Shown here: positions 4,445 through 51,860 of the stretch, piece by piece | Position numbering within the stretch: position 1 is the stretch's first letter | Layout of the letters: every line of letters begins with the position of its first letter | From: Sulfurimonas sediminis | Lineage (GTDB): Bacteria > Campylobacterota > Campylobacteria > Campylobacterales > Sulfurimonadaceae | Direction of reading: 5' to 3' | NCBI RefSeq assembly: GCF_014905115.1 | Contig: NZ_CP041235.1 | Span: 1,550,001-1,614,000, forward strand | DNA: 64,000 bases | Position numbers and translations under genes: made by a program | Notes under the pieces: model-generated | Seen by the model: the letters and a program-made list of their open reading frames with translations, nothing else | Database searches by the model: none | What the model was told of the DNA's origin: nothing

Positions 4445-4771
4445 ATGATCGATCCATCTATAATCAGACCGGAAATTGCGTTGGATGATTTTCTAACTAT
4501 ATTTGTATCGTCAGCACTTGTGTTAGTTTTTGGAGGATTTTATGTTGGTATATATACTGCAGTAAAAGTTAAACTACTAAAACCGTGGAGTATGCTTTTT
4601 GCATACATGTTTTGGGTATTGACTGCCTATTGTTTGTATTTAATGGGAAGTTTAATGCATGTCGGGGAATTTACTGCAAAAGCTTTAGTTGTCGCAGCAA
4701 TTGGATTATTTTTACTTCCATTTGCTGTTTATTATATGCAAAATCAGGTTCATGAAGAAAATGAACATTGA
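4445..4771 (+). CDS. small three-helix membrane protein heading the nor operon
   Basis: A 108-residue very hydrophobic protein with about three membrane helices (residues 18-40, 48-70 and 78-98) and a short charged tail. It starts at an ATG 7 nt after AAGGAG and is the first gene after the Fnr/Dnr-type promoter, 42 bp before norC. I do not recognise the family. By position it could be an assembly or accessory subunit of the nitric oxide reductase, in the way NorF or CtaF-like proteins accompany heme-copper oxidases, but no motif shows this. Confidence 0.7.
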   Translation: MIDPSIIRPEIALDDFLTIFVSSALVLVFGGFYVGIYTAVKVKLLKPWSMLFAYMFWVLTAYCLYLMGSLMHVGEFTAKALVVAAIGLFLLPFAVYYMQNQVHEENEH

Positions 4772-4813
4772 TGCACGATATATATTTTGACAATAAATTT
4801 ATAGGAGGATACA

Positions 4814-5467
4814 GTGGCTAATAAATCTGTATGGAGTGACAATCGTTTCTGGCGAAGAACAGCAACGTGGGTTACAGGTTTTGCATCAGTTCTTTTAATT
4901 TGGTTAACGTTTGATACGTCAGCTCAGATTGCAATGGGAAATGATCAGGATCTACAAAACAAGGTGACGAAGAGGGTTCCAGGACCTACCGTTATAAATT
5001 ACAAAATCACGTATGAAATGAGCGCAAAACGTGGTCATGAAATTCCGGTGATTGGGGAAAAAGAAAAGTTTTTTGGTCGAGATGACTATTCGGAAGAAGA
5101 AGCCGGGGCTTTACTTCACTTAGGCAAGTTAGGCTCACAGGCCAAAAACTGTATGGATTGTCATACACTTCTTGGAAATGGCGCATATTATGCACCTGAC
5201 TTGACAAAAGCATGGCTAGACCCTGCATGGGGACCAGATGGTGCGATGCAGGCTCTAACGGGGAAAAACACAAAAGAAGAGGCGATGGCTGAATTCCTTA
5301 TGCATCCGGACCAGTATCCTACACATGCCCGTATGATGCCGGATTTAGGTATCACAGCAAAAGAGGCTAAAGGTTTAGTTGCTTTCTTGAAACATATGTC
5401 ATCTATTGACACAAATGGCTTCCCAAGAAACTTTGGAAAAATAAAAGGAGCAGTTCATGGCAAGTAA
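4814..5467 (+). CDS. norC: nitric oxide reductase cytochrome c subunit NorC
   Basis: A 217-residue protein anchored by an N-terminal helix (about residues 17-34). It carries a single c-type heme site CMDCH at 113-117 and a downstream Met-rich stretch (HARMMPDLG) that supplies the likely axial Met. NorC passes electrons from periplasmic donors to NorB. The start is a GTG with a strong AGGAGG 7 nt upstream. The stop overlaps the norB start by 11 bp, so translation is coupled. Length and layout match cNOR NorC. Confidence 0.95.
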   Translation: MANKSVWSDNRFWRRTATWVTGFASVLLIWLTFDTSAQIAMGNDQDLQNKVTKRVPGPTVINYKITYEMSAKRGHEIPVIGEKEKFFGRDDYSEEEAGALLHLGKLGSQAKNCMDCHTLLGNGAYYAPDLTKAWLDPAWGPDGAMQALTGKNTKEEAMAEFLMHPDQYPTHARMMPDLGITAKEAKGLVAFLKHMSSIDTNGFPRNFGKIKGAVHGK

Positions 5468-6905
5468 ATATTTAACAGGTGTCGGAAGTGAATCAAAACA
5501 GTTGGCAACATGGTACTTTACATTTGCGGCTATTCTCTTTGGCGCCCAATTACTTTTCGGGTTAGTGGCAGCGATTCAATATGTAATGCCTGGTTTTTTA
5601 TATGGCGTTCTGGATTTTTCAATTGCCAGAATTATACATATTAATGCACTCGTTGTATGGATGGTCTTTGCAATGTTTGGTTCTGTTTACTGGTTACTGC
5701 CGGATGAGACAGGTATTGAAACAGTCGGTATCAAAATCGGAAAGCTTTTGTTTTGGATTTTTGCAGCAGCAATCGTTGTCGTTGTACTTGTATATCTGTT
5801 CATTCAGGTAGGTCCTGCAGATGCAACAACAATCTGGTTTATTACAGAGGGCCGTGAATATATTGAAGCACCTCGTTGGGCTGACTGGGGCATTGTCGTT
5901 GTAGCTCTTGGATTTGTCGGAAATCTTTTCTTAACAGGAATGAAAGGGGAACAGACAGGAATTGTCACCGTTCTTATGGCAGATATGATTGCCTTTGCAG
6001 GTCTTTATCTGGCCGGTATGTTCTTTACGGACAATATTACAGTTGATCAGTACTGGTGGTGGTGGGTAATCCACTTATGGGTTGAGGCTACCTGGGAAGT
6101 TTTCGTTGGCGCGATTGCGGCTTACGGTCTTATTACTATGATTGGCGCACACCGTAAAGTTGTTGAAATGTGGTTATGGATAGAAGTTGCTATGCTCTTT
6201 GGATCAGGTATACTTGGACTCGGTCACCACTATTTCTGGATCGGAACACCTGAGTACTGGTGGGAAATCGGAGCACTATTTAGTGCACTAGAACCGTTAC
6301 CGCTTGTGGCTATGTTTATTCACGTTCTATATGACTGGGGGAAAACGCAAGGTGCAGAAATGGCAAAAGAAGGTGTTAGCGAAGAAAATGTAAAATCAGT
6401 TATCACAAATAAGCCGGCATTTACATGGTTTGTCCTTAATGCCTTTGGTAACTTCTTAGGTGCCGGTATTTGGGGATTCTTCCATACACTGCCACAGGTA
6501 AATCTTTATACTCACGGTACACAGTTTACTTCAGCACACGGTCACCTGGCCTTCTTTGGAGCCTATGCGACCATCCTTGTCGGTATGATGTATATTGCGG
6601 TGCAAGGCACAAACGGTATTAAAGTTATGAAACATACCAAAGCATCTCTGTGGGCTGTCAGCATGATTACCGGCGGTGTTGTCGGAATGACTGTGGCACT
6701 TACAATTGCAGGATATGTACAGGTTCTTGTTTCCCGTGCACAGATGGGTGCTACCTGGGCGGCATACTTTGACGGTCAGAGCGGAATGTGGTTTTCTCAA
6801 GCAATGGACTGGAGACTCATCATGGGTGTTGTTACATTCATCGGTTTCATATTCCTGGCAAAAGATTTACTTACAACTGGTAAAAATCCAGTACACGAAA
6901 GATAA
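5457..6905 (+). CDS. norB: nitric oxide reductase catalytic subunit NorB
   Basis: A 482-residue, 12-helix heme-copper-superfamily protein that reduces two NO to N2O in the cytoplasmic membrane. Family histidines are visible: IIHINALVVW (low-spin heme b ligand region), the catalytic stretch VIHLWVEATWEV, LGHHYFW for the FeB site, and HGHLAFFGAY for the high-spin and low-spin hemes. The Glu residues of WVEATWE are typical of NO reductases rather than oxygen reductases. With norC directly upstream it is the cytochrome-c-dependent (cNOR) type. It has no N-terminal extension of the qNOR kind. Confidence 0.96.
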   Translation: MASKYLTGVGSESKQLATWYFTFAAILFGAQLLFGLVAAIQYVMPGFLYGVLDFSIARIIHINALVVWMVFAMFGSVYWLLPDETGIETVGIKIGKLLFWIFAAAIVVVVLVYLFIQVGPADATTIWFITEGREYIEAPRWADWGIVVVALGFVGNLFLTGMKGEQTGIVTVLMADMIAFAGLYLAGMFFTDNITVDQYWWWWVIHLWVEATWEVFVGAIAAYGLITMIGAHRKVVEMWLWIEVAMLFGSGILGLGHHYFWIGTPEYWWEIGALFSALEPLPLVAMFIHVLYDWGKTQGAEMAKEGVSEENVKSVITNKPAFTWFVLNAFGNFLGAGIWGFFHTLPQVNLYTHGTQFTSAHGHLAFFGAYATILVGMMYIAVQGTNGIKVMKHTKASLWAVSMITGGVVGMTVALTIAGYVQVLVSRAQMGATWAAYFDGQSGMWFSQAMDWRLIMGVVTFIGFIFLAKDLLTTGKNPVHER

Positions 6906-46715: not shown

Positions 46716-46766
46716 TTAAATTTTAAATACATATAAGTGCCTGACAAGAATACCTTCCTCCTCCAA

Positions 46767-46893
46767 TGCCATTAAGTTAAGCATTTTTTTGGAACGCGGA
46801 CTTCAGTCCGGGCTGAGAGTGACAAGAGTATTGCAACAGCCGGCACTGAAGTATCGGTTCCGAAAAAGCATTAATTTTCTTAACTTAATGGCA
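46767..46893. repeat. imperfect inverted REP-like element
   Basis: Two arms of about 48 and 57 bp in inverted orientation. The left arm runs 46767-46815 (TGCCATTAAGTTAA, GGAACGCGG, ACTTCAGTCCG) and the right arm 46837-46893 is its reverse complement apart from a 9-10 bp gap and scattered changes. The left arm also holds its own hairpin CGGACT-TC-AGTCCG. It matches the unit at 37634-37690. No transposase is adjacent. Confidence 0.75.
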
Positions 46894-46990
46894 GTGACCT
46901 CCTCCCCACTTTGTAAATCTTTTGTCAATAAACTACTACCAAATACTTGATAATCTACTGTTATACTTTTAAAATAATAGGAGGTGCTAC

Positions 46991-47401
46991 TTGAAAAAGA
47001 TACTACTAACATTTGGAATTTTAAGTATAACGCTTTATGCAAATCCAATAAATAGCTACATGGAGACTTTAAAAGTTCAAGCAAAAAAAGAGAACCAAAA
47101 CTTCAGTGACTTTAGTGCTGTAAGAGGCAAAGAGATATTTTTCAAAGAACTGATTGGTAAAAGAGAAAAAAAGGTCTCTTGTGCAAGTTGTCATACAAAT
47201 GACTTAACGAAAACAGGTGAAAACATCTTTACAGGGAAAAAAATAAAACCACTCTCACCAAAAGTAAATCCAAAGAGATTTACAAATGTAAAAAAGGTCA
47301 AAAAGTGGCTTAGAAGAAACTTTAAAGATGTTTACAAAAGAGAAGGAACAGCCCTTGAAAAAGGTGATGTATTATATTTTATGATGGGAGTTCAAAAATG
47401 A
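46991..47401 (+). CDS. SHP-like monoheme cytochrome c (DUF1924 type)
   Basis: A 136-residue periplasmic cytochrome with a signal peptide (about 1-18) and one heme site CASCH at 64-68. The sequence around it and the tail KRFTNVKKVKKWLRRNFKDVYKREGT match the sphaeroides-heme-protein / DUF1924 pattern, whose heme can bind O2 or NO transiently. A TTG start (46991) follows AGGAGGT. Its stop overlaps the diheme cytochrome gene by 4 bp, and it heads a six-gene AT-rich operon. Confidence 0.8.
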   Translation: MKKILLTFGILSITLYANPINSYMETLKVQAKKENQNFSDFSAVRGKEIFFKELIGKREKKVSCASCHTNDLTKTGENIFTGKKIKPLSPKVNPKRFTNVKKVKKWLRRNFKDVYKREGTALEKGDVLYFMMGVQK

Positions 47402-47937
47402 AAAAGATAGTAATTTTAATGATTTGCAATGGTTTAGTTTTTGCCGGCGGAATGGCTTATAATCAAGTGACGGATTTTAGGGAAAAGAAAAGCAACTCAA
47501 AAGAAAAAGCTTTATATATAAATGAGTGTGGTTCATGTCATATGCCATATCAACCACAGTTTTTACCTAAAAAATCCTGGATAAAGATGATGAAAAATCT
47601 TGATAATCACTTTAAAACCGACGCAACAGTTGAGCCGGAAGATTATAAAAATTTAAAAGATTTTTTACTTAAAAATGCTTCGGACAGCAAAGAGAGCAAA
47701 AGAGTTGGTAAATATTACAGGAAAATAGCAAATTCTATACCTAAACACAAAACTCTTTTAAGAATAAGTAACGCACCCTATTTTCAAAAAGAGCATAGAG
47801 AATTTCCTAAAAAATACATAACGCAAAAAGAGGTTAAATCTATTGCAAATTGTATTGCTTGTCATAAAGATGCAGAAAAAGGAACATATCAAGAGAGAAG
47901 TATATTTATACCAAACTATGGCAGATGGGATGATTAA
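47398..47937 (+). CDS. diheme cytochrome c (DHC type)
   Basis: A 179-residue protein with a signal peptide (about 1-17) and two c-heme sites, CGSCH (44-48) and CIACH (152-156). FLPKKSWIKMMKNLDNHF between them is the DHC family hallmark. In Rhodobacter, DHC is the electron partner of SHP encoded beside it. The adjacent gene carries another DHC domain, so the pair reads as a duplication. Confidence 0.82.
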   Translation: MKKIVILMICNGLVFAGGMAYNQVTDFREKKSNSKEKALYINECGSCHMPYQPQFLPKKSWIKMMKNLDNHFKTDATVEPEDYKNLKDFLLKNASDSKESKRVGKYYRKIANSIPKHKTLLRISNAPYFQKEHREFPKKYITQKEVKSIANCIACHKDAEKGTYQERSIFIPNYGRWDD

Positions 47938-47939
47938 AG

Positions 47940-49055
47940 ATGAAAGCATATATTTGGCCTCTTCCAAACAGAGTTTTTCATACACTGATAGTTCTTTTTG
48001 TTGCTATATCATGGATAACAAGCGAGTGGGATAACTATTTAGATATACATGCAATTTTTGGCATAGCTGTAGGGTTATTGATTTTGTTTAGAATTGTTTG
48101 GGGCTTTATTGGACCAGAGTATTCGAAATTTTCTACTTGGCCTTTGCATATAGACGAGTTATGGGAATTTGCTAAAAACTTTTTAAATCCAAAAAAGTAT
48201 GCGGGACATAATCCGGCTGCTTCTTTTGTGCTGCTTTCTATCTTAGTGGTTGGAATACTAGTAGTGTTGAGTGGGCTGTTGGCTTATGGAGTACAGGAAG
48301 GAAAAGGTCTTTTTAGTTTTTTACATGACACCTTTTTCCAAAAAATGGAAGTTTTTGAAGAGTTGCATGAATTTATAACAAATATATTTTTCTTGCTTAT
48401 TTTTGCTCATCTATCAGGAGTAATGATAGATAGACTCTTACATCCAAAAACGCAAACTCTTAAATCTATTGTTACAGGCTACAAAAGTATTGAAGCAACA
48501 AGTGTGAGATTAAACAGCTTGCAAAAATTATTTGCATCTCTCTTTTTTATAGGATTGTCTATATTCTTTTCATATAGCATAAGTGGACAAAATATCTTTA
48601 TAAAAAGCAAATATAAAGAGATAGAATATGAAAAACACTCTGCTATTTTTGTAGAAGAGTGTGCTGCTTGTCATACGCTTTATCCCCCTTTTTTACTGCC
48701 TAAGAGTTCTTGGAAACAGCTTATGAAGCAAAAAGAACTTGAAAATCACTTTGGTGATGATGCTTCTTTGAATGAGGAGGATAGAATTTCTATTTTAAAC
48801 TTTTTAGTAAAAAACAGCGCAGAATTTTCTACAAAAGAGAGTGCAAACTATATTTTAAATTCACTAAAAGAGAAAAAAAAGTATATAATAGCAATAACTG
48901 ATACACCTTATTGGAAAAAAAGACATAAAAATATAGATAAAAACATATTTTCAAGTAAAGAAGTAAAAAGTAAGGCAAATTGTAAAGCATGCCATACAAA
49001 AGTAGAAAGAGGTCTTTTAGAAGATAATCAGATAAAAATACCTAATGGAGCTTAG
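47940..49055 (+). CDS. cytochrome b561-type membrane protein fused to a DHC diheme domain
   Basis: A 371-residue fusion. Residues 1-215 form a four-to-five-helix b-type cytochrome (histidines at about 14, 37, 143 and 157 are candidate heme ligands; RIVWGFIGPEYSKF is typical of hydrogenase-type cytochrome b561). After a last helix (about 197-215), residues 230-371 repeat the DHC pattern with CAACH (241-245), LLPKSSWKQLMKQKELENHF and CKACH (348-352). It can pass quinol electrons to periplasmic SHP/DHC. Starts 2 bp after the separate DHC gene. Confidence 0.82.
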   Translation: MKAYIWPLPNRVFHTLIVLFVAISWITSEWDNYLDIHAIFGIAVGLLILFRIVWGFIGPEYSKFSTWPLHIDELWEFAKNFLNPKKYAGHNPAASFVLLSILVVGILVVLSGLLAYGVQEGKGLFSFLHDTFFQKMEVFEELHEFITNIFFLLIFAHLSGVMIDRLLHPKTQTLKSIVTGYKSIEATSVRLNSLQKLFASLFFIGLSIFFSYSISGQNIFIKSKYKEIEYEKHSAIFVEECAACHTLYPPFLLPKSSWKQLMKQKELENHFGDDASLNEEDRISILNFLVKNSAEFSTKESANYILNSLKEKKKYIIAITDTPYWKKRHKNIDKNIFSSKEVKSKANCKACHTKVERGLLEDNQIKIPNGA

Positions 49056-49442
49056 ATGAGAATTATTCTTATTTTTTTAATGATATTTAACTTTGCTTTT
49101 GCAGATCACAATGATAAATATGAAAATAAAGAGCATTTTTTTAAAGACTTATCATATTTACACCTAAAAAACGATCAAAAAAAATACATACAAGTTATTT
49201 TAATTAATGCCAAGAAGAGATTAAAAAATATGAAAAAACTAGAAAACAGTACCAATAAAACTCTTAAAAAACTTTTCTTAGAAGATGATTTTGATGAAGA
49301 AGAAGCTTCAAGAGTTTTAAATATCTATGAAGCAGAAGAAGTAAAACTTCATATAGATACATTGAAAAAAATTCATAAAATTCTAAATAATGAGCAAAGA
49401 AGACAATTTAGCAGATATCTTAAGGAGTGGGAGTTTGAGTAA
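49056..49442 (+). CDS. periplasmic Spy/CpxP-like helical protein
   Basis: A 128-residue protein with a signal peptide (about 1-16) and long amphipathic helices rich in Lys/Glu, resembling periplasmic LTxxQ/CnrX-type sensors. A signature LTxxQ is not clear, though LKNDQKKYIQ is similar. It precedes a response regulator and kinase and overlaps the regulator by 8 bp, so it could be the periplasmic signal input of that system. This is inference. Confidence 0.6.
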   Translation: MRIILIFLMIFNFAFADHNDKYENKEHFFKDLSYLHLKNDQKKYIQVILINAKKRLKNMKKLENSTNKTLKKLFLEDDFDEEEASRVLNIYEAEEVKLHIDTLKKIHKILNNEQRRQFSRYLKEWEFE

Positions 49443-50106
49443 AAATATAATGCTAATAGAAGATGATAAAAAGATGCAAGAGTTAATACAAGAGTATTTA
49501 GAAAATTTTGGATTTAATCTGTCTGTGTTTGGAGAACCAAAAGAGGCTTTAGATGAACTTTTTTCAAAACAAAGTTTTTATGATTTGGTTGTTTTAGATT
49601 TAATGCTTCCAAATATGGATGGCTTTGATGTATGTAAGATTATAAAAAACACAGTTGATATACCCATAATAATATCAAGCGCAAGAGGTGATATAGGAAA
49701 TAAAATCTACGGATATGAGCTTGGCGCAGATGATTATTTGGCCAAACCTTATAATCCAAGAGAACTTGTATTAAAAGTAGAAACACTCCTAAAAAGATAT
49801 AAAAAGTCAAACAGTTTTAAAATAAACAACCTAACAATAGATGAAATCAACAGAACAGTAAAAATTAAAGATTATAAGGTTGATTTAACAAAAGCAGAAT
49901 TTGATATTTTACTTTTCTTAATAAAACATACAAATTCAATTTGCTCAAGAGAGCAGATAGCCACAGCTATCGGATTGCCAATCGATACAAAAAAAAGAGT
50001 TATTGATATGCATATCTCTAACATTAGATATAAGATTGGAGATGATGCTAAAAATCCAGAGTTTATTAAATCTATTTGGGGTATGGGATACAAGTTTGTA
50101 TCATGA
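49435..50106 (+). CDS. OmpR-family response regulator
   Basis: A 223-residue regulator: receiver domain with E9/D10, phospho-acceptor D55 (LVVLDLMLPNMDG) and KP at about 101, and a winged-helix C-terminus with VDLTKAEFDILLFLIKH and RVIDMHISNIRYKIG. The TTG at 49435 follows AAGGAG (8 nt); an ATG at 49390 would lie inside the upstream gene. It overlaps its kinase (ATGA). Confidence 0.9.
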   Translation: MSKNIMLIEDDKKMQELIQEYLENFGFNLSVFGEPKEALDELFSKQSFYDLVVLDLMLPNMDGFDVCKIIKNTVDIPIIISSARGDIGNKIYGYELGADDYLAKPYNPRELVLKVETLLKRYKKSNSFKINNLTIDEINRTVKIKDYKVDLTKAEFDILLFLIKHTNSICSREQIATAIGLPIDTKKRVIDMHISNIRYKIGDDAKNPEFIKSIWGMGYKFVS

Positions 50107-51305
50107 ATATTCAAAAAAAACTTTTTATATTTTTTGCTTTTAACGGAGTCTTGTTTCTGGCAATATCATCGTTCCTCTATCTTCAAAACAATAAAAAGCA
50201 AGAGCTTTTAATCGATAAAATCTACCTCAATAGCGCAAACACTATTTTAAAATATATTACTAAAGAACAAAATACTCAATTAAAAAACTATTTATTATCA
50301 CAAAATCTTCAAGAGATAAAAAATTTAAAAAATTATAAAGTCACATATTCTAAAGATTTAGTTTTATCCAAATTAGCAATTGTCAAAAAAGAGAATACAA
50401 AATATTTAATAGTTGAATATCTTGATGAAAAAAGAATCTTTTTTAGTAAACTTTATCAAAAATTTAAAAAAGAGAACTATATTTTATTAGTATTTTTTTT
50501 AATAATTTTTATATTGAACATTACTCTTTTTATTTTAATCAACAGACTATTTAAACCTATAAAACTCTTAACCCAAAGGATGCTTGATTTTGTATCTTTA
50601 AGTAAAAATACAAGTAACTTCGATGAAATACAAGAGTTAAATATCGCTTTTTCAATTATGACACAGAAAATCAATACTCTACTTATGCAACATAAAGACC
50701 TCTTAAGAGATATGGGACATGAATTAAAAACACCTATAGCAAGAGGAAAATTTATAATTCAAAAAATAGAACAAGAGAATTTAAAAGTTGAACTCAATGC
50801 TGTTTTTAACGAATTAAACAGCTTAACTTCAACTATTTTAAATACACAACTATTATCAAAAGAGAATATGAAAATATCAAATTTTGATATTGACTCCATT
50901 TTACTAGAATCACTTCAAAGAGTTGGAGCGAGTGAAGATGAAGTTGAAATTCAAAAAAGAAATGAACTCAATTTTCAAGCTGATTTTTCTTATCTTATCC
51001 TTGCATTTAAAAACTTAATTGAAAATGGCTTGAAATATAAAATCAATGATAAGCTATACATAATCATAAAAGAAGATAGAATTATATTTAAAAATAGAGC
51101 AAAAAGATTAAAAAAAGAGTTTGAGTACTATTTAAAACCATTTTCACAAGAGGATAAAAACTCAGAGGGGTTTGGGATAGGACTTAGCTTGGTTCAAAAA
51201 ATTGCTACACTACATAATTTTCAGTTAAACTATTACTATAAAAATGATTTTATACATTTTGAGATGATAGTAAAAAAGAGTATGAAAAGTGCTAAAAGAG
51301 AATAA
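50103..51305 (+). CDS. sensor histidine kinase
   Basis: A 400-residue membrane kinase with helices at about 8-27 and 126-147 flanking a ~98-residue periplasmic sensor region, a short HAMP-like stretch, the DHp histidine H206 in MGHELKTPIARG, and an ATPase domain with N-box NLIENGLKY and G-box GFGIGLSLVQK. Coupled to the regulator by ATGA overlap. It probably senses a periplasmic signal relevant to the SHP/DHC cytochromes. Confidence 0.88.
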   Translation: MNIQKKLFIFFAFNGVLFLAISSFLYLQNNKKQELLIDKIYLNSANTILKYITKEQNTQLKNYLLSQNLQEIKNLKNYKVTYSKDLVLSKLAIVKKENTKYLIVEYLDEKRIFFSKLYQKFKKENYILLVFFLIIFILNITLFILINRLFKPIKLLTQRMLDFVSLSKNTSNFDEIQELNIAFSIMTQKINTLLMQHKDLLRDMGHELKTPIARGKFIIQKIEQENLKVELNAVFNELNSLTSTILNTQLLSKENMKISNFDIDSILLESLQRVGASEDEVEIQKRNELNFQADFSYLILAFKNLIENGLKYKINDKLYIIIKEDRIIFKNRAKRLKKEFEYYLKPFSQEDKNSEGFGIGLSLVQKIATLHNFQLNYYYKNDFIHFEMIVKKSMKSAKRE

Positions 51306-51356
51306 AAAGAGTGTTACATTAGTATTAAGTAAGCGTTCTTACGCTATCTTTAGGGT

Positions 51357-51860
51357 ATGAAAAAAAATATTAGATATGCAGGATTTTGGATACGCTTTTT
51401 TGCCTCGTTTTTCGATACGCTCTTTTTGGCTCTGCCTGTAGGTATCATTATTTATTTTGTAAGTGATGGCAACTGGTTTGATTTTTCCCAGTACCAACAC
51501 AATATTCAAATGGCAATGAATGGGAATATGCATGCTCTTGACCAACAACCGCATACCTCTTTAACATGGGAATTTGTTTTTGAGATTTCAGTGTTGCTTG
51601 TGACAATTCTTTTTTGGGAAAAGTGGCACGGAGCTACCCCTGGAAAAAAATTTCTACATGTAAAGATAGTCGATGCCTTTACATGTAAAGATATAAACAA
51701 CAAACAGGCGATTACACGTTCTTTGGCCTATATCCCCTCATTACTGTTGTTCGGACTCGGCTTTTTGATGGTGGCTTTTCGAAAAGACAAAAGAGGACTG
51801 CATGATTTGATTGCCGGAACCATTGTAATCTATGAGGAAGAAGCTACTCCTCACTCATAA
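51357..51860 (+). CDS. RDD-family membrane protein
   Basis: A 167-residue protein with three membrane helices and RDD-type residues: AGFWIRFFASFFDTLFLALP at the start, PGKKFLHVKIVDAF after the second helix and KDKRGLHDLIAGTIVI near the end. It has two TACATGTA motifs within 25 bp. RDD proteins often act in ion or small-molecule transport; function here is unknown. It ends convergently, overlapping ttcA by 17 bp. Confidence 0.88.
   Translation: MKKNIRYAGFWIRFFASFFDTLFLALPVGIIIYFVSDGNWFDFSQYQHNIQMAMNGNMHALDQQPHTSLTWEFVFEISVLLVTILFWEKWHGATPGKKFLHVKIVDAFTCKDINNKQAITRSLAYIPSLLLFGLGFLMVAFRKDKRGLHDLIAGTIVIYEEEATPHS

Follow-up and report, generated by a model that had tools for sequence, protein, structure and literature searches.

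We analysed a 64-kb stretch of the Sulfurimonas sediminis genome (the window) and found, at positions 46991–51305, a block of six genes that we interpret, with a probability of about 0.5, as an SHP operon of the Campylobacterota type, gained by horizontal transfer and under its own control, which would be induced by stress and would feed an electron chain ending in SHP. All six ORFs are open and intact, lie on the plus strand and abut or overlap one another, as tightly packed as an earlier note on this DNA had described them. They run in the sequence SHP, DHC, b561–DHC fusion, Spy-like protein, response regulator and histidine kinase; judged by this arrangement, the block is an operon of SHP, DHC and cytochrome b genes.

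The first gene (46991–47401, +; TTG start with AGGAGG ahead of it) encodes an SHP (DUF1924) monoheme cytochrome c (Pfam DUF1924/SHP, E 4.5e-36) that matches the solved SHP structure 1dw0 at E 2.1e-16. Its single heme motif, CxxCH, occupies residues 64–68, and Asn110, the presumed sixth heme ligand, aligns with the RN motif of 1dw0; this Asn is kept in 68 of 69 aligned SHP rows, the remaining row having a gap. The disulfide that in most SHP operons directly follows the sixth ligand is absent from the window SHP, and none of the 69 rows, the window copy included, has a Cys beyond CxxCH in the part that aligns. Since excerpts of Meyer, Kyndt and Cusanovich 2010 (PMC2909971) report the same absence in three epsilonproteobacteria, we regard it as the mark of a subtype and no bar to membership of the SHP operons. 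According to the same excerpts, reduction of the disulfide in Methylophilus SHP stops ligand dissociation, so ligand binding by an SHP without it may differ from that of Methylophilus. The second gene (47398–47937, +) encodes a soluble diheme cytochrome c (Pfam DHC, E 2.7e-35). The third (47940–49055, +) joins a membrane cytochrome b561 (E 9.8e-20) and a diheme DHC domain (E 1.1e-30; both Pfam) in a single protein, and the fused DHC domain is 40% identical to the separate DHC, in agreement with the earlier description of a fusion that repeats it.

The product of the fourth gene (49056–49442, +), a Spy/CpxP-like (LTXXQ) periplasmic protein, is the weakest family call of the six (LTXXQ, E 3.2e-4; NCBIfam Spy, E 8e-6), with scores under the curated cut-offs (21.8 versus 24.3 bits for Pfam LTXXQ and 26.2 versus 174 for NCBIfam Spy). 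Its motifs L35-x-L37-x3-Q41 and L110-x3-Q114 are conserved across 64 sequences. The predicted model is all-helical and its top PDB matches include Spy, CpxP, ZraP and CnrX chains, at E 0.19 or worse; an unrelated protein ranks third among the matches, none of which reaches E ≤ 0.001. Among its conserved residues there is one His (63 of 64 sequences) but no multi-His site, so that a metal site like that of CnrX is unsupported. The fifth gene overlaps the spy-like gene (49435–50106, +; TTG start at 49435 placed by reading the sequence) and encodes an OmpR-family response regulator with Pfam receiver and winged-helix domains. The product of the sixth (50103–51305, +; ATG at 50103, likewise read from the sequence), an ArsS-like sensor histidine kinase, has a periplasmic domain of ~100 aa; its kinase domains score just below or below the Pfam cut-offs, as does its match to the NCBIfam ArsS-family histidine kinases (E 1.5e-55). 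In sequence it resembles the kinases that hold the same operon position in Arcobacteraceae loci. It deviates from the consensus at many positions conserved across 57 sequences and retains the phospho-acceptor and ATP-binding motifs. We found no convincing PDB match for its sensor fold, and no heme or NO sensor domain in the six proteins with Pfam or NCBIfam. In the Cpx envelope-stress system, a Spy/CpxP LTXXQ-like helical periplasmic protein works with an OmpR-type regulator and a kinase. The window likewise has an LTXXQ-like helical protein encoded next to such a regulator and kinase; it departs from Cpx in that its kinase is closer to the ArsS family than to CpxA and its Spy-like protein scores under the family cut-offs.

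Of 68 testable loci, 57 keep all six genes in this order, counted after removal of 14 duplicates (11 by script and three, L208, L219 and L221, by judgement) and leaving out 23 loci that were too short or lacked b561; the loci named here are the 80 best among 171 matches to a Campylobacterota query and are therefore uninformative on absence elsewhere. The full order is missing from L024, L168, L180, L184, L185, L193, L197, L210, L240, L241 and L253; in L168 a Spy-like ORF is present but uncounted, and a flavoprotein gene stands between shp and dhc. Recurrent flank genes among the 68 loci, identified from the recurrent clusters of 520 flank ORFs, include cation efflux (4 loci), ZIP-like (5; a label from a single weak match) and EptA (8), and none of them matched in a small control of 264 kb of the window's genome. 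The metal-related flank genes occur in a minority of loci, their recurrence is in part inherited synteny, and none of them directly adjoins the window copy.

Upstream of the SHP gene lies a putative response-regulator operator, TGTAAA-N5-TGTCAA (46912–46928, +), an 11-bp direct repeat and the only strict match in the window. Of 66 loci, 51 have the tandem repeat TGTMAA-N5-TGTMAA ahead of SHP, where 0.035 would be expected, although k-mer enrichment uncovered it on the very sequences used for counting and, the upstream regions being related, the 51 occurrences are not independent. The remaining 15 regions comprise nine with one mismatch, four with two, one with three and one with four. Across 853 kb of loci, 53 of the 61 strict matches fall upstream of SHP. 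The repeat is missing upstream of two loci without the regulator pair, both from one Helicobacter MAG, and present at L168, where neither a regulator nor a kinase was detected next to the SHP module. On this sequence evidence the conserved repeat is probably the binding site of the operon's own regulator, and together with the regulator pair it supports the earlier suggestion that the unit has its own control. Genome-wide, the 13 strict matches are near background (6 for the reversed pattern), so no targets outside the operon can be named. A putative promoter follows (46947–46975, +), with TTGATA at 46947–46952, a 17-bp spacer and TAAAAT at 46970–46975, the last an unsure −10 assignment because it is very near the ribosome-binding site. 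TTGATA starts 35 bp past the operator start, as in most relatives: a TTGACA-like hexamer lies 34–35 bp along from the operator in 47 of 51 loci, against 17 of 51 control stretches with two or fewer mismatches and none of 51 with an exact match. Alternatively, the hexamer could be an inverted half-site.

Judging from the excerpts of Meyer et al., the operon type itself has been known since 2010 (PMC2909971), and what is new here is the six-gene order kept in most loci and the conserved upstream repeat. Like the epsilonproteobacterial SK3 SHP operon described there (Campylobacter fetus, Arcobacter butzleri), the window has SHP, DHC, a CytB/DHC chimera, a regulator and a kinase; in both, the SHP gene is ahead of CytB and the Cys89–Cys97 disulfide is absent. 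The excerpted description mentions no Spy-like gene or operator, whereas the window has both, the operator being putative, and the window copy, unlike the SK3 operon as described, has a composition foreign to its genome. In Allochromatium vinosum and Shewanella oneidensis, too, SHP clusters combine SHP, DHC, b561 and a two-component pair, with metal efflux genes near the A. vinosum cluster (excerpts of PMC2909971 and PMC11267869). They differ from the window, according to the excerpts of Meyer et al., in a kinase of type SK1 and an accessory protein, Orf1; the same text has b561 unfused to DHC in most species and the disulfide in most SHPs, whereas the window has the fusion and lacks the disulfide. 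For S. oneidensis, published listings label SO4483/4484 cytochrome b and shp (PMC5955497), SO4477/4478 cpxR/cpxA (PMC2535785) and SO4475 fieF (PMC10617992); we infer their closeness from gene numbering alone. The Shewanella DHC SO_4485 is annotated, in the portion of PMC3219624 available, merely as 'for energy production'. Excerpts of PMC11267869 list DUF1924, two DHC genes, b561, a two-component pair and FieF of A. vinosum as induced on pyrite, and there the authors discuss the cytochromes as pyrite electron transfer, not metal stress.

In the operation we propose, the Spy/CpxP-like protein and the ArsS-like kinase would sense stress in the periplasm, most probably a surplus of transition metal or damage to the envelope. 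This best guess at the signal comes from the Spy/CpxP-like protein, the recurrent metal and EptA flank genes and the pyrite induction in A. vinosum. The phosphorylated OmpR-type regulator would bind the tandem TGTMAAGAAAn repeats ahead of the promoter and would turn on, rather than repress, all six genes. Electrons would then pass from quinol through cytochrome b561, the fused diheme domain and DHC to SHP, whose reduced heme may bind a small ligand (O2 and NO are the known ones) and reduce or detoxify it. The steps from DHC to SHP and from SHP to its ligand are borrowed from relatives: in the excerpts of PMC2909971, Rhodobacter SHP binds O2 and NO and is reduced by DHC. Meyer et al. could do no more than propose a role for SHP (PMC2909971), and the literature we searched yielded neither a role established after 2010 nor a published experiment on this operon.

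The same Rhodobacter chemistry, together with the near-invariant presumed Asn ligand, lends some weight to a reading close to that of the earlier note, in which the same acquired operon senses and removes O2 or NO in a microaerophilic bacterium. We give it a distinctly smaller chance than stress induction, because none of the six proteins has a detected heme or NO sensor domain, the regulatory half resembles an envelope-stress system and no SHP row has a Cys after the heme motif. It is unlikely that the block is a decaying or silent acquired island, with genes intact and a signalling half that no longer works in this host: of the six, the genes for the kinase and the Spy-like protein have the highest AT content, and the kinase has drifted from the consensus, yet every frame is open, the phospho-acceptor and ATP-binding motifs of the kinase are intact and the operator fits the strict pattern at the usual distance.

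Horizontal acquisition of the module is well supported by its sequence. The G+C content of the block, 0.279, is below that of all 423 overlapping equal-length genome stretches sampled (mean 0.378), and its genes, from SHP to kinase, have 0.307, 0.306, 0.312, 0.235, 0.285 and 0.237, compared with a mean of 0.376 (sd 0.036) for 240 background ORFs. One of 139 overlapping background concatenations has a stronger codon bias than the block (0.29). These are the G+C and codon statistics that the earlier note had proposed, and they bear out its A/T-rich block and codon use. With the module taken as shp to rr, module minus flank G+C is −0.097 here versus a mean of −0.007 and a lowest value of −0.043 in 60 other loci; the AT-richness is thus foreign, as the module matches its flanks in those loci and not here, and the idea that it is intrinsic to such genes is rejected.

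The block lies between the housekeeping gene guaB and an RDD gene. In the closest by guaB of 60 genus genomes, the same slot is taken by a TonB/PepSY/EAL island; positions 46734–51292 have no homologous counterpart in G011, the closest relative examined, where the flanks are 93.5 and 94.6% identical. Among the 46 genus genomes that carry guaB and RDD on a single contig, the gap between them is ≤130 bp in 35, and six other gaps exceed 1 kb, each with an EAL-type ORF; this count omits G010 (RDD fragment match only), split-contig genomes and genomes missing either gene. Close relatives therefore hold different cargo or none, as a synteny comparison suggested in the earlier note was meant to reveal, and the locus is a clear case of swapped cargo between two housekeeping genes. 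SHP is patchy, being present in 21 of 134 other genus genomes. The exchanged segment contains no recognisable integrase, and no direct repeats of ≥7 bp are common to 46716–46765 and 51256–51357. The REP-like element previously noticed just upstream is real: a 133-bp REP-containing MITE-like element (46764–46896) with 18-bp terminal inverted repeats, CAMTGCCATTAAGTTAAG. The 8-bp CCTCCTCC at both its edges (46757–46764 and 46898–46905) is compatible with a target duplication without proving one. The element is one of 20 genome sites with at least 120 of 151 query bases aligned; five pairs of same-family ends bracket 1585-bp stretches, and the one read encodes a DDE transposase.

In the tree, the window module groups with sequences from other families, clustering with nine rows (SH-aLRT 99), though its long branch (0.59) makes the position unsure. 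In the eight of those nine genomes where guaB was found, it is 75–81% identical, versus at least 88% in 57 genus matches. Grouping the window with either of two genus clades was rejected (AU p 7.6e-14 and 9.7e-74), whereas grouping with L167, L172 and L173 was not (p 0.09), the formal p values being weakened because the groups were named after tree inspection; vertical inheritance within the genus is thus rejected in two groupings and not in the third. The three loci are probably congeneric, as their guaB is 91% identical, and their SHP copies sit elsewhere than the guaB–RDD slot, since neither gene was seen in these loci. The nearest module is 61% identical, so the donor would be unsampled. 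In L225, a Sulfurovaceae locus, the SHP module follows guaB and a ZIP-like gene; this locus was ruled out as donor via guaB because its copy is distant (43% in b561–DHC). The tree favours an origin outside the genus but is also compatible with kinship to the three likely congeneric copies. Given the composition, it is largely disfavoured, and very improbable, that the AT-richness is intrinsic or the block an old genus possession lost elsewhere, which the 21 other SHP-bearing genomes and the AU p of 0.09 would allow and which the matching G+C of module and flanks in other loci, the mostly short or EAL-filled guaB–RDD gaps and the different location of the three likely congeneric copies argue against. 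Hence, from the earlier proposal of an acquired redox-sensing or detoxifying unit, acquisition stands on composition, slot swap and patchy presence, and the redox-sensing or detoxifying role is a conjecture, the indirect evidence pointing rather to metal or envelope stress as what induces the operon.

A bolder version of the stress-induced operon, which we consider rather doubtful, would make the Campylobacterota SHP module a mobile stress cassette, carried between genera together with a private operator, found almost only upstream of this operon. Its Spy-like sensor, ArsS-like kinase (with a sensor fold that has no PDB match) and regulator would induce a quinol-fed, disulfide-free SHP acting as a metal- or envelope-stress reductase, not as an O2 carrier. 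The conserved operator-like repeat and the near-constant sensor–regulator set make the function of SHP approachable through what induces the promoter.

The six genes that the earlier note described on the forward strand at 46991-51305 are all open reading frames, lying where it had placed them. They are tightly packed: shp and dhc overlap by 4 bp, spy/rr and rr/hk also overlap, and b561-dhc touches spy. Family searches confirmed SHP (DUF1924), DHC, a fusion of cytochrome b561 with a second DHC domain and an OmpR-type regulator; for the kinase, ArsS was the nearest family. The Spy assignment, which scores below curated cut-offs, is the least secure of the six. Solved structures 1dw0 and 3u99 are recognisably related to the SHP and DHC of the window, respectively. 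The block is flanked by an RDD gene, whose identity was confirmed with Pfam, and by a gene that we take to be guaB. The periplasmic domain of the kinase (50187-50507) is predicted to fold as two helices, five strands and a final helix (pLDDT 85); comparison of this model with the PDB gave no convincing match.

Meyer et al. 2010 (PMC2909971) describe SHP operons in over 40 proteobacteria. They report a CytB/DHC chimera and absence of the disulfide for C. fetus, A. butzleri and W. succinogenes, and a kinase of type SK3 for the first two. The operon type with the chimera has thus been known since 2010, and the window copy resembles these epsilonproteobacterial operons in having the chimera and lacking the disulfide. 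In the aligned part of the 69 SHP rows, no Cys follows the heme motif, and the Asn presumed to be the sixth heme ligand is kept in 68 (one gap); judged by sequence, this alignment extends the disulfide-free subtype.

The block had been called AT-rich, and indeed its G+C content of 0.279 lies under the minimum (0.305; mean 0.378) of 423 overlapping block-length windows drawn from ten 20-kb regions of its genome and the rest of the window. AT-richness intrinsic to such genes is largely disfavoured: at the 60 other module loci with enough flank, the G+C of the module (shp to rr) differed from that of its flank by a mean of -0.007 (sd 0.021, lowest -0.043), versus -0.097 in the window. The bias, therefore, marks the window copy.

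Of the 60 genomes of the genus that were searched, 46 carry guaB and the RDD gene in the same orientation on a single contig; as the earlier note had wondered, these genes mostly stand side by side (≤130 bp apart in 35 genomes, 131-1000 bp in 4, and >1 kb in 7, the window's included). All six other long gaps contain a large receiver/PAS/GGDEF/EAL-type ORF, as in genome G011, on whose protein the Pfam domains were determined and to which the other five are 48-52% identical; the slot thus varies across the genus. At loci L125-L130, in several genus members, the ORF filling it encodes 753-852 aa. G011 is the closest by guaB among the genomes surveyed (99% identical), and its slot also carries a TonB receptor and a PepSY protein; flank identity with the window ends 18 bp past guaB and picks up again within hk, 13 bp from its end. 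In genome G067 (guaB 98%), an EAL-type ORF (84% identical) follows guaB, and a TonB-type ORF, similar by eye, lies beside the RDD gene on a separate contig. Of 8 genomes searched for the EAL protein, 3 have it; in the window's own genome it was not found at E ≤ 1e-100. The SHP module either displaced EAL/TonB-type cargo or moved into a slot already vacated; the inserted segment showed neither an integrase-like gene nor a repeat shared by its ends. In a Sulfurovaceae MAG (L225:4069-10835), too, the module follows guaB, from which it is separated by a ZIP-like gene (weak Pfam hit).

SHP is present in 22 of 135 genus genomes, counting the window's. One scan of a species-representative collection gave 171 loci; among the best 80, which were named, all but two had Campylobacterota-type titles (the others being 'Proteobacteria' and 'bacterium'). 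Of 91 non-duplicate loci, 68 were long enough for a gene-order test, and 57 have the six genes in identical order. At L168:3806-7595, in a Campylobacterota MAG, shp and dhc are separated by a gene for a flavoprotein (4644-5882) that by eye resembles a sulfide dehydrogenase.

A tree built by a quick method from shp, b561-dhc and rr (69 rows, SH-aLRT support only) groups the window with nine rows (support 99): G058, a genome of another family, and MAGs titled Nitratifractor, Sulfurovum, Campylobacterales and Campylobacteraceae. The guaB of eight of these is 75-81% identical to the window's, versus at least 88% in 57 genus matches, which puts those eight genomes outside the genus as sampled; no guaB was found for L165, one of the nine. 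The next group out (L167, L172 and L173; support 88) is probably congeneric, since its guaB is 91% identical. Joining the window to these three was not rejected by the AU test (p 0.09); the test did reject placing it in either of two further genus clades. The window has a long branch (0.59). The data thus favour, without settling, an origin outside the genus, and the earlier proposal that the module was acquired is carried by its foreign composition and the different cargo of the slot.

The same proposal gave the module its own control, and here a regulator pair in the operon is joined by a conserved upstream sequence. An 11-bp tandem repeat, with the approximate consensus TGTMAAGAAAnTGTMAAGAAA, is common to the regions upstream of 66 modules, that of the window among them. 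In its strict form, TGTMAA-N5-TGTMAA, the repeat is found in 51 of the 66, whereas Markov-shuffled sequences average 0.035; no other spacing from 7 to 24 exceeds 3, and across 853 kb of module loci 53 of 61 strict matches fall within upstream regions. In 47 of 51 cases (control stretches, 17/51), a TTGACA-like hexamer (≤2 mismatches) begins 34-35 bp from the start of the repeat, and in 28 the match is exact (control, 0/51); this hexamer could serve as a -35 box or form an inverted half-site. Within the window the strict form occurs once (46912-46928), with TTGATA exactly 35 bp on. The repeat is absent at two loci of one Helicobacter MAG that have SHP, DHC and b561 without the regulator pair, and present at L168, although no regulator or kinase was found alongside. 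These observations fit a putative site through which the OmpR-type regulator would act on its own operon. Among the papers listed in literature searches, mainly of non-subscription sources, none described this putative operator or an experiment on SHP from Campylobacterota.

Just upstream lies the REP-like element noticed earlier, a MITE-like repeat containing the REP (46764-46896), with 18-bp inverted repeats as ends and 20 near-full-length genome sites. The end sequence has 46 genome matches at ≤1 mismatch. Five pairs of ends enclose 1585-bp stretches, and the one read codes for a 456-aa DDE transposase; the ends of the element match those of this IS. Y1 transposases are linked to REPs, and the genome has three Y1 genes. 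The element sits just before the putative operator, which is intact, and we take the element as an insertion separate from the SHP module. Several of the 20 aligned copies adjoin GAGGTGCCCTT-like sequence, as if such sequence were preferred for insertion.

As to the inducing signal, we lean towards metal or envelope stress, because of the Spy/CpxP-like partner, the metal and EptA genes in flanks, and the induction on pyrite of the SHP genes of A. vinosum together with FieF, which its authors discuss as electron transfer (PMC11267869). O2 or NO is a fair rival. Flanks of the 68 loci hold cation-efflux (4), ZIP-like (5) and EptA (8) genes, the EptA loci being mostly Arcobacteraceae and likely to reflect shared synteny. 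EptA lies upstream of shp in all eight (L181, L183, L186, L187, L189, L192, L194 and L199), with PAP2 in seven and diacylglycerol kinase in seven, functions of lipid A or the envelope (Pfam run on one representative each).

The block is thus a real, probably self-regulated member of a known operon type, most likely acquired; what is new and testable here is the conserved operator-like repeat upstream of shp.
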